Shown: piece after piece, positions 1 through 54,871 of the stretch
Layout: every line of letters begins with the position of its first letter
Numbering within the stretch: position 1 is the stretch's first letter
Assembly: GCF_004362975.1 (NCBI RefSeq)
Contig: NZ_SNXO01000010.1
Coordinates: forward strand, 1-62,080
DNA length: 62,080 nt
Source: Aminicella lysinilytica
Lineage (GTDB): Bacteria; Bacillota; Clostridia; Peptostreptococcales; Anaerovoracaceae
Direction of reading: 5' to 3'
Program-made: the position numbers and the translations under genes
The notes under the pieces: model-generated
What the model saw: the letters and a program-made list of their open reading frames with translations, nothing else
Told to the model about the DNA's origin: nothing
Databases searched by the model: none

Positions 1-112
1 TTATATTTTCAATTTCAATTATACTTGAAAGTGGAGCATTTGGCTCTATATTTTTTTGATCTCTCCAATTCTCTCTTTTACACCATTATACGGACTCAAT
101 CCGAGGGCAATC

Positions 113-266
113 GTTGAAATTTCAATATGCGCACCTCCATGCTCTGAGAATCACAGATAAGTGCGGAAAACTAATTGGGGCCGGCCAAAATGCACCTTCC
201 TTTCGAAATAGGGGGGCATAAGTGCGGGCGCGCACGTATACGACCAAATCAATAATATATGGTGCG
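113..266. repeat. 31-bp-phased CGCAC/GTGCG half-site array, first locus
   Basis: Half-sites lie at 130 (CGCAC), 161 (GTGCG), 191 (TGCAC, one change), 222 (GTGCG), 231 (CGCAC) and 262 (GTGCG). The steps are 31, 30, 31, 9 and 31 bp. Several sites extend to ATAAGTGCG or ATACGTGCG. The 29 bp at 113-141 recur inverted at 54122-54150 with two mismatches, which ties this locus to the larger array before the SseB-like gene. No convincing gene lies in 1-873. The stretch 1-112 shows nothing I can name. Confidence 0.6.
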
Positions 267-374
267 CGACACACGGATCGTACCACTGATGGAGCCATAC
301 CCTACAGGTGATACATTTTAACTGAAGTGAATTTACACTCAAATATGAACTTGACAATCTCTATGGACGCAGCG

Positions 375-4793: not shown

Positions 4794-5617
4794 ACGAATT
4801 CAACCATTTCCTCAATAGTAACTACTTCTTCCGGGACTTTGATCCCGCGGCTCCTGAGTTTGGCGCCCAGTTCAACAGCCATAGGCACATCCAGGTTGAC
4901 GGACCTGATCAGCTCGTGTTCCTTGAAAACTTCCTCCGGCGTGCCGTCCAGAAGTACAGTGCCTTTGTTCAATATTATGACCCGCTCTGCTCTGACTGCC
5001 TCATCCATAAAGTGAGTGATCAGAACTACGGTTATTCCTTCTTCGTGGAGTTCCTTGATTATGTCCATAATGTCGTTGCGGCCTCTTGGATCAAGCATAG
5101 CTGTCGGCTCATCGAAAATGATGCACTTAGGCCTCATGGCTACAACTCCGGCAATGGCTATCCTCTGCTTCTGTCCGCCGGACAGAAGGTGTGGTGCCTT
5201 CCGCTTGTATTCGCCCATGTTGACCGATTCGAGGGCTTCATCTACGCGCTTTCTGATAAGCTTAGGTTCTACGCCAAGATTCTCCGGCCCGAAGGCCACA
5301 TCATCCTCGACTATAGATGAAACCAGCTGGTTGTCAGGGTTCTGAAAAACCATACCCGCAGTCTGGCGAACGTCCCAGATATGCTCGTCGTCTTTGGTAT
5401 CCCAGCCGTTGACGTAAATGGCGCCGCCGCTTGGCAGCAGCAGACCGTTCAGGTTCTTGGCCAAGGTCGATTTGCCGGAACCGTTCTGTCCGATAATTGC
5501 CGTGAAACTTCCCTCTTCTATGTCCAGAGAAATGTTGTTGATGGCTTTGACCGGCTCCTGGTCTTCCTCGCCCATATATTCAAATATCAAGTTTTCTATT
5601 TTGATGATACTCTTCAT
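4778..5617 (-). CDS. ecfA1: ECF transporter ATPase EcfA1
   Basis: The partner ABC ATPase of EcfA2. The 279 residues show Walker A GQNGSGKST (about 42-50), Q-loop QNPDNQLVSSIVEDDVAFGPENLG (the PDNQ form typical of EcfA1), signature LSGGQKQRIAIAG, Walker B CIIFDEPTAMLDPRGR and switch histidine LITHFMDEA. AAAGGAAACCT precedes the ATG. It is the first gene of an operon ecfA1-ecfA2-ecfT-trmB, with its promoter inside the argD terminator (5643-5687). Confidence 0.94.
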   Translation of the reverse strand: MKSIIKIENLIFEYMGEEDQEPVKAINNISLDIEEGSFTAIIGQNGSGKSTLAKNLNGLLLPSGGAIYVNGWDTKDDEHIWDVRQTAGMVFQNPDNQLVSSIVEDDVAFGPENLGVEPKLIRKRVDEALESVNMGEYKRKAPHLLSGGQKQRIAIAGVVAMRPKCIIFDEPTAMLDPRGRNDIMDIIKELHEEGITVVLITHFMDEAVRAERVIILNKGTVLLDGTPEEVFKEHELIRSVNLDVPMAVELGAKLRSRGIKVPEEVVTIEEMVEFVCQYK

Positions 5618-24339: not shown

Positions 24340-24475
24340 GGAACCGATGAACGGTTCGCGAATGATTGGTACTCAATAAGAAAACCTTGCCTCATAGACA
24401 GAAGCAAGGTCAATATCTTTATATATTGTACCTCGGCGGGAAATTAAGCTTTCGCACCCGCTGTCTACGGTTTTA
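24340..24475 (-). promoter_or_regulatory. L10 leader (ribosomal autoregulatory RNA)
   Basis: The minus strand carries the Firmicute L10 leader hallmarks: ACCGTAGACAGCGGGTGCGAAAG, then CTTAATTTCCCGCCGAGGTA, and a hairpin ACCTTGCTTC...GAGGCAAGGT (written on the plus strand around 24381-24410). In this family L10(L12)4 binds the leader and lowers rplJL expression. It fills the 176 bp between rplA and rplJ. Confidence 0.88.
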
Positions 24476-24501
24476 GTGTCAAATTCAATTGTTTAGCTGC
24501 A

Positions 24502-52336: not shown

Positions 52337-53737
52337 CTAAAACTCCGATGTTTTCGGCGTCCTCGGGAACGGCAGCACATCGCGGATGTTGCTCATGCCC
52401 GTTACATACATTATCATGCGCTCGAAGCCAAGGCCGTAGCCTGCGTGCTTGACGCCGCCGTATTTACGCAGCTCCAAATACCACCAGTAATCCTTTTCGT
52501 TGAGGCCCATTTCCTTCATGCGGGCCTGTAGAACATCCATGCGCTCTTCTCTCTGACTGCCGCCGATGATCTCGCCAACGTCCGGAACCAGCATATCGCA
52601 TGCCGCCACGGTCTTGCCGTCATCGTTGAGCCTCATGTAGAAGGCCTTGATGTCCTTAGGATAATCCGTCACGAATATCGGCTTCTTGAAGACTTCCTCG
52701 GTCAGGTATCTCTCATGCTCGGTCTGCAGGTCGATGCCCCACTCTACAGGGTACTGGAATTCCTTGTCGGCCTTCTGCAGGATCTCCACGGCCTTAGTGT
52801 ACGGCACTCTGTCGAAATCCGAATTTACCACATGGTGAAGCCTGTCCAGCAAGCCCTTGTCTACGAATTTATTGAAGAACTCCATCTCTTCAGGAGCGTT
52901 TTCCAAAACATAGTTGATGATGTATTTGACCATGTCTTCGGCTACCTGCATATCGTTGTCCAGGTCGGCGAAGGCGATTTCCGGCTCGATCATCCAGAAC
53001 TCAGAGGCGTGTCTTGCCGTGTTGGAATTCTCCGCTCTGAAGGTCGGTCCGAAGGTGTAGACGTTTCTGAAGGCCAGGGCGAATATCTCCGCTTCCAGCT
53101 GTCCGCTTACGGTCAGGTTGGTCTCCTTGCCAAAAAAGTCCTGGGAATAATCTATCTTGCCATCCTCCGTAAGAGGCGGGTTTTTCATGTCCAAAGTTGT
53201 CACCTGGAACATTTCGCCGGCGCCCTCGGCGTCGCTGCCCGTGATTATCGGGGTGTGCACGTAAACAAAATCCCTCTCCTGGAAGAATTTATGTATGGCG
53301 TAGGCTACCAGTGATCTCACGCGGAAAACTGCCGCAAAGGTGTTGCTCCTCGGCCTCAGGTGTGCGATCTCGCGCAAAAACTCCATTGAATGTCTTTTGT
53401 TCTGCAAAGGGTAGTCTGCGGCGGAGTCTGCCTCCATGGTTACTTCCTCGGCGTGGATCTCAAAGGGCTGCTTGGCGTCTGGCGTCATTAGCATCGTGCC
53501 CTTGATGAGCAATGCCGACGACAAAGGCGCCTTGGCTACTTCTTCGAAGTTGTCGAGTTTGTCTGCCTCGTAAACTATCTGTACCGGCTGGAAAAATGTT
53601 CCGTCATTTAGATTGATGAAGCCAAACTTGTTGGAATTCCTGTTCTGCCTGACCCATCCTCTCACGACGACTTCCTTACCGGCGTATTTTTCTGTGTTTC
53701 TGAAAAGTTCTCTCAGTTGAATATCTTTAGTGACCAT
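52337..53737 (-). CDS. asnS: Asparaginyl-tRNA synthetase
   Basis: A class IIb synthetase of 466 residues. The N-terminal OB fold ([35 protein letters not shown]) binds the anticodon; class II motifs follow: motif 2 ([28 protein letters not shown], with asparagine-type features) and motif 3 ([29 protein letters not shown]). The start at 53737 has AAAGGAATAAG upstream; a longer frame adds 33 residues with no family resemblance. Its own promoter is unclear. No T-box found upstream. Confidence 0.96.
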
Positions 53738-53910
53738 CTTATTCCTTTCCGTGAAGATCCGGTGGCTGGGCGGCACGCAGTACGGTGCCTGGTGCTGGAC
53801 GCGGCGCCACTTGGGCTTTCCGGCACTGCTGGCCATGTCGCCACCTTCTCACGTTTTTATTTCATTGTTTTGTATTATATCACAGGTTCGTACCCGTTGC
53901 AAATACAGAA

Positions 53911-53947
53911 CTGTCGGGCACTTCAATTATTTTGGCAGTTGCCCACT
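53911..53947. repeat. Decayed CTGTCGGGCA element
   Basis: CTGTCGGGCACTT (53911-53923) and GTTGCCC-ACT (53938-53947) match the ends of elements A and B at 10419-10612, with the interior shortened to about 15 bp. Confidence 0.6.
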
Positions 53948-54020
53948 ATTCCGTCTTACAGATATTTCTAGCCCCAAGTTCTGACCCAATGCCGCGCACC
54001 TCTTTAACTGATTTTTAGGC

Positions 54021-54351
54021 AATACGTGCGGGGGTCGCACGTATTGGCCCTGTTTCTAGACCCGAGGTGCGATTTTAGGATTTGAAAAAAATAATACGCA
54101 CTTATTTGAGGTTTTGGCGACCATGAAAGTGCGCATATTGAAATTTCAACATTTTATCTGCGTACTTATATACTATTTCAGAACAAAAACAGTGTTCTTA
54201 AGGCCTAATTCGCTACCATTAAATCCCATTTATGTGTGCCTGCCCCATCAGCGCGCACCTCGGTCTGTTTGATTCAGTCAATAAGTGCGAATTTGGTTTA
54301 CAATAAAATAAAATACGCACTATCATCTCTGATATTTGATCAATACGTGCG
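54021..54351. repeat. 31-bp-phased CGCAC/GTGCG array before the SseB-like gene
   Basis: Half-sites: GTGCG 54026, CGCAC 54036, GTGCG 54067, CGCAC 54097, GTGCG 54129, CGTAC 54161 (one change), GTGTT 54192 (weak), none clear at 54223, CGCAC 54254, GTGCG 54285, CGCAC 54316, GTGCG 54347. From 54036 on all keep a 31-bp register within one base and alternate in orientation. Sites read AATACGTGCG or ATAAGTGCG on one flank. The array ends 27 bp before the -35 of the next gene and accounts for much of the gene-free 53738-54436. Confidence 0.75.
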
Positions 54352-54377
54352 CAACCTCTTCCAAGCCATAATATCGA

Positions 54378-54406
54378 TTGCATTTCTCCCCAATCCTTGT
54401 TAGAAT
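54378..54406 (+). promoter_or_regulatory. Promoter of the SseB-like gene
   Basis: TTGCAT (54378-54383), a 17-bp spacer and TAGAAT (54401-54406), 30 bp before the start codon, immediately downstream of the half-site array. Confidence 0.8.
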
Positions 54407-54436
54407 AAATTCACCTATATAAAGGAGGATAAAATC

Positions 54437-54871
54437 ATGACAGATAATATGAAGCCTATGAACGAGGAAGGCTATACAGAGCAAATGCTCCAGGACGGCA
54501 GCACACTGGTATACCTGAAGCACAGGTTCATGGAAAAGAAAACCAAGGAACAACTTGACTGGATCTACAGCTGCATCCGTGATTCCAAGCTTATCGTTCC
54601 ACTGATTCCCATCAGCAAGAAGCCGGACATGCTCGAAGACGATGACGGCACCAAGTACCTGGCAATCTTCTCACAGGAAGAACAGATGCCGGAGGACTAC
54701 CGCGATGAATTTATTTTAGAGTCCATGACCTTCGAAGCCTGCCTTGAACTGGCCAGAAGCAATCCTGAAATCGATTCCATGGCCCTTGACGGATTCACGG
54801 AAACTATGGTAATAGATTTTCCTTTGGCCGAGGTCATTCTGCAAACGCCATCAAGATCGCACAAAGAGTAG
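54437..54871 (+). CDS. SseB-like domain protein
   Basis: 144 residues, soluble. The middle resembles the SseB N-terminal domain: LIVPLIPISKKPDMLEDDDGTKYLAIFSQEEQMPED, then MTFEACLELARSNPEIDSMALDGFTETMVIDFPLAEVI. SseB-type domains are of unclear function, sometimes linked to secretion or enhanced serine sensitivity. AAAGGAGGATAAAATC precedes the ATG. It is a single gene under a good promoter and next to the phased array, convergent with the large GGDEF/EAL gene. Confidence 0.75.
   Translation: MTDNMKPMNEEGYTEQMLQDGSTLVYLKHRFMEKKTKEQLDWIYSCIRDSKLIVPLIPISKKPDMLEDDDGTKYLAIFSQEEQMPEDYRDEFILESMTFEACLELARSNPEIDSMALDGFTETMVIDFPLAEVILQTPSRSHKE

Follow-up and report, generated by a model that had tools for sequence, protein, structure and literature searches.

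Short, non-coding, multicopy elements that lie between genes and have inverted-repeat-like ends are familiar in bacteria as MITEs and Correia elements. Closer in form to the element described here are the REP/BIME repeats, which are extragenic, dispersed and built of regularly spaced units that alternate in orientation, and for which protein binding and a part in chromosome organisation have been proposed (PMC2817692, in the sections cited). These repeats are also described as targets of insertion sequences (PMC1525189). Some of the REPs in the table of PMC2817692 begin with GTGG, and the GTAG/CGTC tag is not absolute. At the protein level, the cited passages on Lrp/AsnC octamers (LrpC of B. 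subtilis and, among archaeal Lrp-like regulators, Ss-LrpB and BarR) describe sites on one face of the DNA, two or three turns apart when measured between centres, with the DNA wrapped and the DNA-binding domains of the oligomer facing outward (PMC2995911, PMC10201364). RemA is an octameric ring that is proposed, in the relevant part of PMC8481266, to wrap regularly repeated upstream DNA.

The locus discussed here lies in the window, which is the whole stretch of DNA analysed (62,080 nucleotides), from a source genome of 2.29 Mb in 91 contigs (G000). It was brought to attention by an original prediction of CGCAC/GTGCG half-sites alternating every 31 bp. Ten exact GTGCG or CGCAC 5-mers are found at 53995-54351 (starts and strands 53995-, 54026+, 54036-, 54067+, 54097-, 54129+, 54254-, 54285+, 54316-, 54347+), and they form seven opposed-orientation pairs at 30-32 bp. 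The array is real: none of 5000 dinucleotide shuffles of 53951-54400 reached seven opposed pairs (mean 0.001, maximum 1), which rules out a chance origin. It begins at 53995 and not at 54021, as had been claimed, and of the claimed register the alternation and the 31-bp spacing stand, while the sites at 54026 and 54036 are only 10 bp apart. The 125-bp gap in the array holds two decayed sites (54161 and 54192) that are exact in most copies of the element. Elsewhere in the 62-kb window the only opposed pairs at 30-32 bp are 130/161 and 231/262, both inside a second, partial copy. The features are as follows.

53992-54361, plus strand: complete copy of the dispersed element, with a length of 370 bp and 12 half-site slots; a row in the alignment with 22 other full copies (nhmmer match 53981-54368)
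53995-53999, minus strand: half-site 1 (CGCAC)
54026-54030, plus strand: half-site 2 (GTGCG), forming a tight palindrome with site 3
54036-54040, minus strand: half-site 3 (CGCAC)
54067-54071, plus strand: half-site 4 (GTGCG)
54097-54101, minus strand: half-site 5 (CGCAC)
54129-54133, plus strand: half-site 6 (GTGCG)
54161-54165, minus strand: half-site 7, decayed here (CGTAC), exact in 19/23 copies
54192-54196, plus strand: half-site 8, decayed here (GTGTT), exact in 21/23 copies
54254-54258, minus strand: half-site 9 (CGCAC), two 31-bp steps past site 8
54285-54289, plus strand: half-site 10 (GTGCG)
54292-54306, plus strand: TTTGGTTTACAATAA, the spacer with the strongest conservation in the element, with 1 terminal change in 15 columns across 23 copies
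54316-54320, minus strand: half-site 11 (CGCAC)
54347-54351, plus strand: half-site 12 (GTGCG)
102-278, minus strand: second copy in the window, left half only (nhmmer model positions 8-184, 137 bits), truncated at about 100 bp from the end of the contig
1-101, no strand assigned: end of the repeat that interrupts the second copy, probably an insertion sequence, also present at the cuts on C13 and C39 (by eye)
52337-53836, minus strand: class II (D, K and N) tRNA synthetase gene, a neighbour only, start codon uncertain (Pfam PF00152, E 2.3e-67)
54437-54871, plus strand: gene for an SseB N-terminal domain protein of 144 aa, a neighbour only (Pfam PF07179, E 4.9e-9)

The array is one of many. 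A blastn search with 53850-54436 found at least 19 places in its own genome including itself, the other 18 at 70-75% identity, and nothing in 30 other genomes. Allowing up to 3 mismatches, the core AMGTGCGNNTTTGGTTTACAATAA matches the source genome 28 times (exactly in 26 cases, with a single mismatch in 2), where the reversed control has no match, and it matches nothing in 60 relatives, which include 16 congeners. A profile search recovered 29 pieces, 23 of full length and 6 partial, a number that is a lower bound because the profile was run on the stretches around core-pattern matches and on the window. The window copy has no ORF of at least 60 aa overlapping the array by at least 80 bp. Such overlapping ORFs in other copies mostly vary in length (63-131 aa) and strand, and one copy (L063) has a 390-aa ORF across it. 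The element is thus a dispersed, non-coding, intergenic one of about 370 bp, with about thirty copies in the genome.

The six partial copies (C10, which is window 102-278, C13, C17, C39, C58 and C60) all end some 93-102 bp from a contig end. By eye, those on C10, C13 and C39 are cut beside one common foreign sequence, probably an insertion sequence, and that on C17 beside another. Five of the six interrupted copies break near model positions 177-206, and at least two different insertion-sequence-like ends are involved; the elements seem to attract insertions, or the assembly breaks there. The GC skew flanking the 29 pieces is above 0.01 in 16, below -0.01 in 8 and between these values in 5, which is suggestive at most of an orientation bias with respect to replication.

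Other repeats are found close by. At one locus (L053) two copies in opposite orientation (2033-2417 and 5129-5511) lie about 2.7 kb apart, with a 435-aa ORF between them that we take to encode a permease-like protein and, just outside, a presumed thiamine-phosphate-synthase-like ORF. The inverted repeat TTCCATCAATGGTACCTTTATGCATA has 23 matches with up to 3 mismatches in the source genome and none in 20 relatives. It brackets some copies of the element (L052, L056, L066, L068 and L073), is also present on contigs that have no core-pattern match, and is a separate repeat family, perhaps a larger mobile unit. In the right flanks of L056, L057, L052 and L067, tandem repeats of about 15-25 bp start at the element end and differ in sequence from copy to copy. 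A GC-rich, hairpin-like repeat, GCGGGCGAGCCTACCCAAAGGGCT...GCCCGCGG, occurs with its variants near L052, L056, L062, L063 and L068. The intergenic space of this genome is a mosaic of repeat families.

Structurally, the element is uniform, although the median pairwise identity of its copies is 71%. Between equal model positions, 14 of the 23 full copies measure 367 bp and the rest 368-370 bp. Single damaged sites apart, all 23 hold 12 AVGTGCG half-sites that alternate in orientation on a 31-bp register, with consensus start-to-start steps of 31, 9, 31, 30, 31, 31, 31, 62, 31, 31 and 31 bp, so that each copy has one tight step (9-10 bp) and one long step (62 bp). GTGCG is exact in 261 of the 276 half-sites, and the base before it is A, C or G, never T. 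The motif pooled from these 276 sites is one-sided: GTGCG is preceded by A at -2 (0.86) and a weaker A at -4 (0.64), with G at -9/-8 (0.53/0.57) and T at +15 (0.73). The window copy is the most diverged of the 23, with the longest branch (0.43) and damage to sites 7 and 8, and is therefore a poor choice for bench work.

Changes were counted by Fitch parsimony on a FastTree tree of the 23 full copies. On terminal branches the half-sites show 0.23 changes per column (60 columns) and TTTGGTTTACAATAA shows 0.07 (15 columns), compared with 2.48 elsewhere (292 columns); on internal branches the corresponding values are 0.03, 0 and 1.50. Because terminal-branch changes are about 11-fold rarer in half-site columns than in the rest, the copies appear to be constrained individually and not merely as a family.

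The spacers carry a signal of their own. With the half-sites masked, the strongest period in A+T content is 10.3 bp. Its mean power is 5.8 in the copies and 1.4 in the controls, 102 flanking stretches, whose 95th percentile is exceeded by 22 of the 23 copies. A second peak at 8.7-8.8 bp has a power of 3.8 and becomes the largest when 8 bp around the sites are masked. Permutations equalled or exceeded the observed power in 0, 1, 0 and 9 of 2000 cases with 2, 4, 6 and 8 bp, respectively, masked on either side of the sites. Across these masks the power was 0.2-1.1 for the 31-bp fundamental, 1.4-6.2 for the 15.5-bp harmonic and 4.5-13.6 at 10.3 bp. Since the fundamental is weak and the harmonic smaller, the 10.3-bp signal is not a mere by-product of the bases next to the sites. 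Measured from a site, A+T content has its minima at 0, at about 9 and at about 21 bp, with the maxima between them. Phasing of this kind suggests that the DNA between the sites is bent, and it is from base composition that we infer wrapping.

Outside the source genome the sequence itself is hard to find. One copy of the element had no match among plasmids and phages, and the exact core was not found in GTDB species contigs or viral contigs, sets in which records very near the source genome may be absent. A generic five-site GTGC register pattern, of low sensitivity (17/229 loci recovered), had 0 matches in viral contigs. A sequence model applied to 349 genomes of the family, with the best 10 candidates per genome scored so that weak relatives were possibly missed, found only the source genome and a weak match in G217 (E 5.8e-4), which on inspection of its sequence has no array. 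Judged by this distribution, the element does not serve a conserved function essential to the group: it was found in none of the 16 congeners searched and had no convincing match in the other genomes searched.

The arrangement of the sites has a wider distribution. Among 344 other genomes of the family, a pattern of three alternating half-sites matched 11 times, in 8 genomes, hardly more often than the control with 7 matches. The three-site case in G330 and the single matches in G170, G177, G274, G368 and G370 are not above chance. Two genomes, G194 and G331, were accepted as real because of their further copies and register, not because of the match count, and G328 was found starting from G331. 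G331 and G328 belong to one genus (g98). Their element is a different one, about 350 bp long and with the core TGGTGC, and a query copy of it has no blastn match to the source genome. Nine copies were examined, five in G331 and four in G328, a count that excludes a partial match without a three-site chain (L222, G328:C15:72701-72866) and further short G328 matches (C104, C15:19302 and C82). The -+-+ / -+-+ chain of 8 GTGC sites is complete in seven copies, and the other two have 7 sites. Every one of the 34 inward (- to +) steps within chains measures 31 bp in CGCAC-to-GTGCG terms, and the two blocks lie 146-159 bp apart. The spacers of this element again peak at 10.3-10.4 bp (power 6.2-6.4; away from the peak and its shoulders, the power at 9-12 bp does not exceed 2.9). 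In a pair of copies that share a flank in the two species, none of the 48 core positions differs, whereas 52 of the 294 others do (Fisher p = 3e-4), the core positions having been defined from one of the two sequences.

In this pair (L198 2413-2773 and L197, on G331:C39 and G328:C15), the element is in the opposite orientation relative to the shared flank, at 84% identity with the flank at 86%, as if the element had inverted between its own inverted repeats.

In a further genus (g73), two loci of G194 carry shorter arrays, whose arms resemble TGTGCGTTTTTG / CAAAAACGCACA and are spaced at 30 and 32 bp. One of them (L179) has an additional tight inverted pair and inverted-repeat ends, and no blastn match to the source genome. 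As the same alternating 31-bp GTGC register is found without detectable sequence similarity, it is the plan rather than the sequence that recurs across genera.

Several explanations can be weighed against these data, and the most local is that the array is an operator for the sseB promoter. The last half-site of the window copy ends 85 bp upstream of the sseB start codon, and the original prediction had placed a good promoter 27 bp past the array. A consensus scan of 53700-54500, which weaker promoters would escape, gave five promoter-like sites, none of them in 54352-54436 between the array and sseB. The genes next to the other copies are various and apparently unrelated when predicted ORFs are compared by eye, and no shared neighbour gene is evident in the ORF listing inspected in the same way. 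Because the other copies adjoin such various genes, the link between array and promoter looks incidental. At the sseB orthologues of four congeners (G002, G006, G007 and G008), 1.5 kb on either side holds no opposed 30-32 bp pair and no profile match, so the check on relatives proposed with the original prediction comes out negative at the orthologous region, while the spacing is kept in the other copies of its own genome. Given also that the longest branch is that of the window copy, in which two sites are damaged, we consider a role as sseB operator extremely improbable. The possibility of a structured RNA, or of a REP/BIME-like hairpin series acting in RNA or single-stranded DNA, arises because alternating CGCAC and GTGCG can pair, and BIMEs likewise hold regularly spaced, alternately oriented palindromes (PMC2817692, in the section cited). 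The window copy (plus strand) and copy L057 (both strands) also fold better than shuffles, with z of -3.7, -5.5 and -6.1. These folds are stable, yet covariation is absent: the RNAalifold covariation term is -0.74 of -45.2 kcal/mol, any double change is seen in 3 of 52 predicted pairs, and base pairing in at least 80% of the weight is found for 11% of the 300 column pairs that covary most strongly, versus 18% of all column pairs. The A or C beside facing half-sites matches in 7-17 of 23 copies, close to the 8-14 expected under independence (6 site pairs). A period of 10.3 bp, that of the DNA helix, is unexpected for RNA, and Rfam at gathering thresholds has no match in 53990-54361. The phased RNA hairpin series that had been proposed is thus already disfavoured and strikes us as very unlikely. 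Elsewhere in the window, Rfam matches only two tRNAs and a ribosomal protein L10 leader (24369-24488, minus strand; RF00557, 76 bits).

The main rival is a non-autonomous, MITE-like transposon whose sites bind a transposase supplied in trans, their conservation reflecting what the transpososome requires. In its favour, the copies are dispersed beside various genes, as judged by eye, and the element is present in the source genome and was not found in congeners. The g98 copies are likewise absent beside matching flanks in other species, and one of them has 43-nt inverted repeats that are 88% complementary. The ends of the element resemble a short inverted repeat, CCGCGCAC...GTGCGCGG, which overlaps the half-sites themselves, and some copies lie within larger units bounded by inverted TTCCATCAATGGTACC repeats. 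The 10.3-bp periodicity could also arise if bendability aids a transposase. Against this, none of the three g98 loci compared between species offers a clean empty site; at one locus homology ends on either side of the element, and at the other two on a single side, in each case within tens of bases. Target duplications, sought by eye only, were not seen, nor was an autonomous copy among the sequences inspected. Among the 253 pairs of the 23 full copies one is more than 95% identical and two more than 90%. The half-sites are also constrained on terminal branches (0.23 versus 2.48), unlike those of dead copies, although the long terminal branches could partly conceal active lineages that are missing from the sample, and the case for selection on individual copies would then be weaker. 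We hold it to be rather unlikely that the element is such a transposon, and note that this origin is compatible with a later or simultaneous role for the host.

The reading that we favour, with a probability of roughly 0.58, is that the element is a dispersed, non-coding platform acting at the level of DNA for a putative multimeric GTGC-binding protein that would wrap DNA on one helical face. The original prediction had likewise offered a cooperative DNA-binding protein on one face of the helix, and it gains indirect support from the 31-bp register, the 10.3-bp phasing of the spacers and the constraint on the half-sites. In the proposed mechanism, each AVGTGCG half-site would be contacted by one subunit. 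Two-fold axes would relate adjacent subunits, as they do in dihedral rings or filaments, and such axes would give sites that recur every 31 bp (three turns) on one face of the DNA and alternate in orientation; opposed half-sites at three-turn steps thus point to successive contacts that are two-fold related and on the same face. The alternation of A+T and G+C every 10.3 bp in the spacers would exist because the DNA between the sites curves around the protein. About thirty such complexes between genes would stud the chromosome and may serve chromosome organisation, local topology and transcription, or both.

A bolder and more tentative proposal, to which we give somewhat less than an even chance, is that this represents a new class of element. 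It would act as a "wrapping address", in effect a nucleosome-like positioning signal written into the sequence, whose alternating GTGC half-sites three turns apart and 10.3-bp phased spacers would guide a dihedral ring of protein to assemble in dozens of places between genes. It would have arisen, or been re-invented with unrelated spacers, in at least two, probably three, genera of one clostridial family. If so, some clostridia encode dozens of sites at which one protein imposes a set fold on about 300 bp of DNA. This would be the bacterial equivalent of programmed nucleosome positioning, and one DNA fragment would be enough to test it. It would also provide a clean case for how a spreading repeat becomes, or serves as, chromosome architecture. 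Even if the element proves to be mobile, the retention of 12 phased sites by almost all full copies, which diverge by about 29%, would make an unusual design for a transposon end.

How, then, does the element compare with known systems? An open-access literature search with few terms named no described element of the same form, in agreement with the original prediction, and the nearest analogue is the REP/BIME group. MITEs resemble it in being short, non-coding, multicopy and intergenic with inverted-repeat-like ends, but differ from it in that twelve internal phased sites are conserved here copy by copy, and no target duplication is shown. Like the operators described in the cited parts of the Lrp/AsnC reports, the present sites are phased on one face, with 31-bp steps and 10.3-bp spacers. 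The Lrp sites described there, however, are imperfect inverted repeats of 13-17 bp, bound by dimers in regulatory regions, whereas here single one-sided half-sites alternate within a dispersed multicopy element, to which no Lrp was linked. RemA, in the corresponding part of its report, protects AT-rich 7-bp direct repeats at 3-bp intervals, unlike the alternating GTGCG found every 31 bp. We claim neither an Lrp/AsnC protein nor RemA as the binder of the element. With REP/BIMEs the element shares extragenic dispersal, targeting by insertion sequences and half-sites that alternate, here on a 31-bp register in 23/23 full copies. It differs in that its unit is a one-sided half-site of 5-8 bp and not a hairpin of 20-40 nt, in that stem covariation is absent, and in that its core, AVGTGCG, lacks the GTAG or CGTC tag described in the cited parts of PMC2817692 and PMC3733652. 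Its copies number about 30 (29 pieces and 28 core matches) where REPs usually exceed 100, and its form is fixed at 12 slots, 367 bp, 31-bp steps and spacers phased at 10.3 bp. Because the traits of BIMEs are shared in part and fail on hairpin covariation, tag and copy number, we rate the element as a variant of interspersed repeats, one that would work more like a wrapped operator than like a REP.
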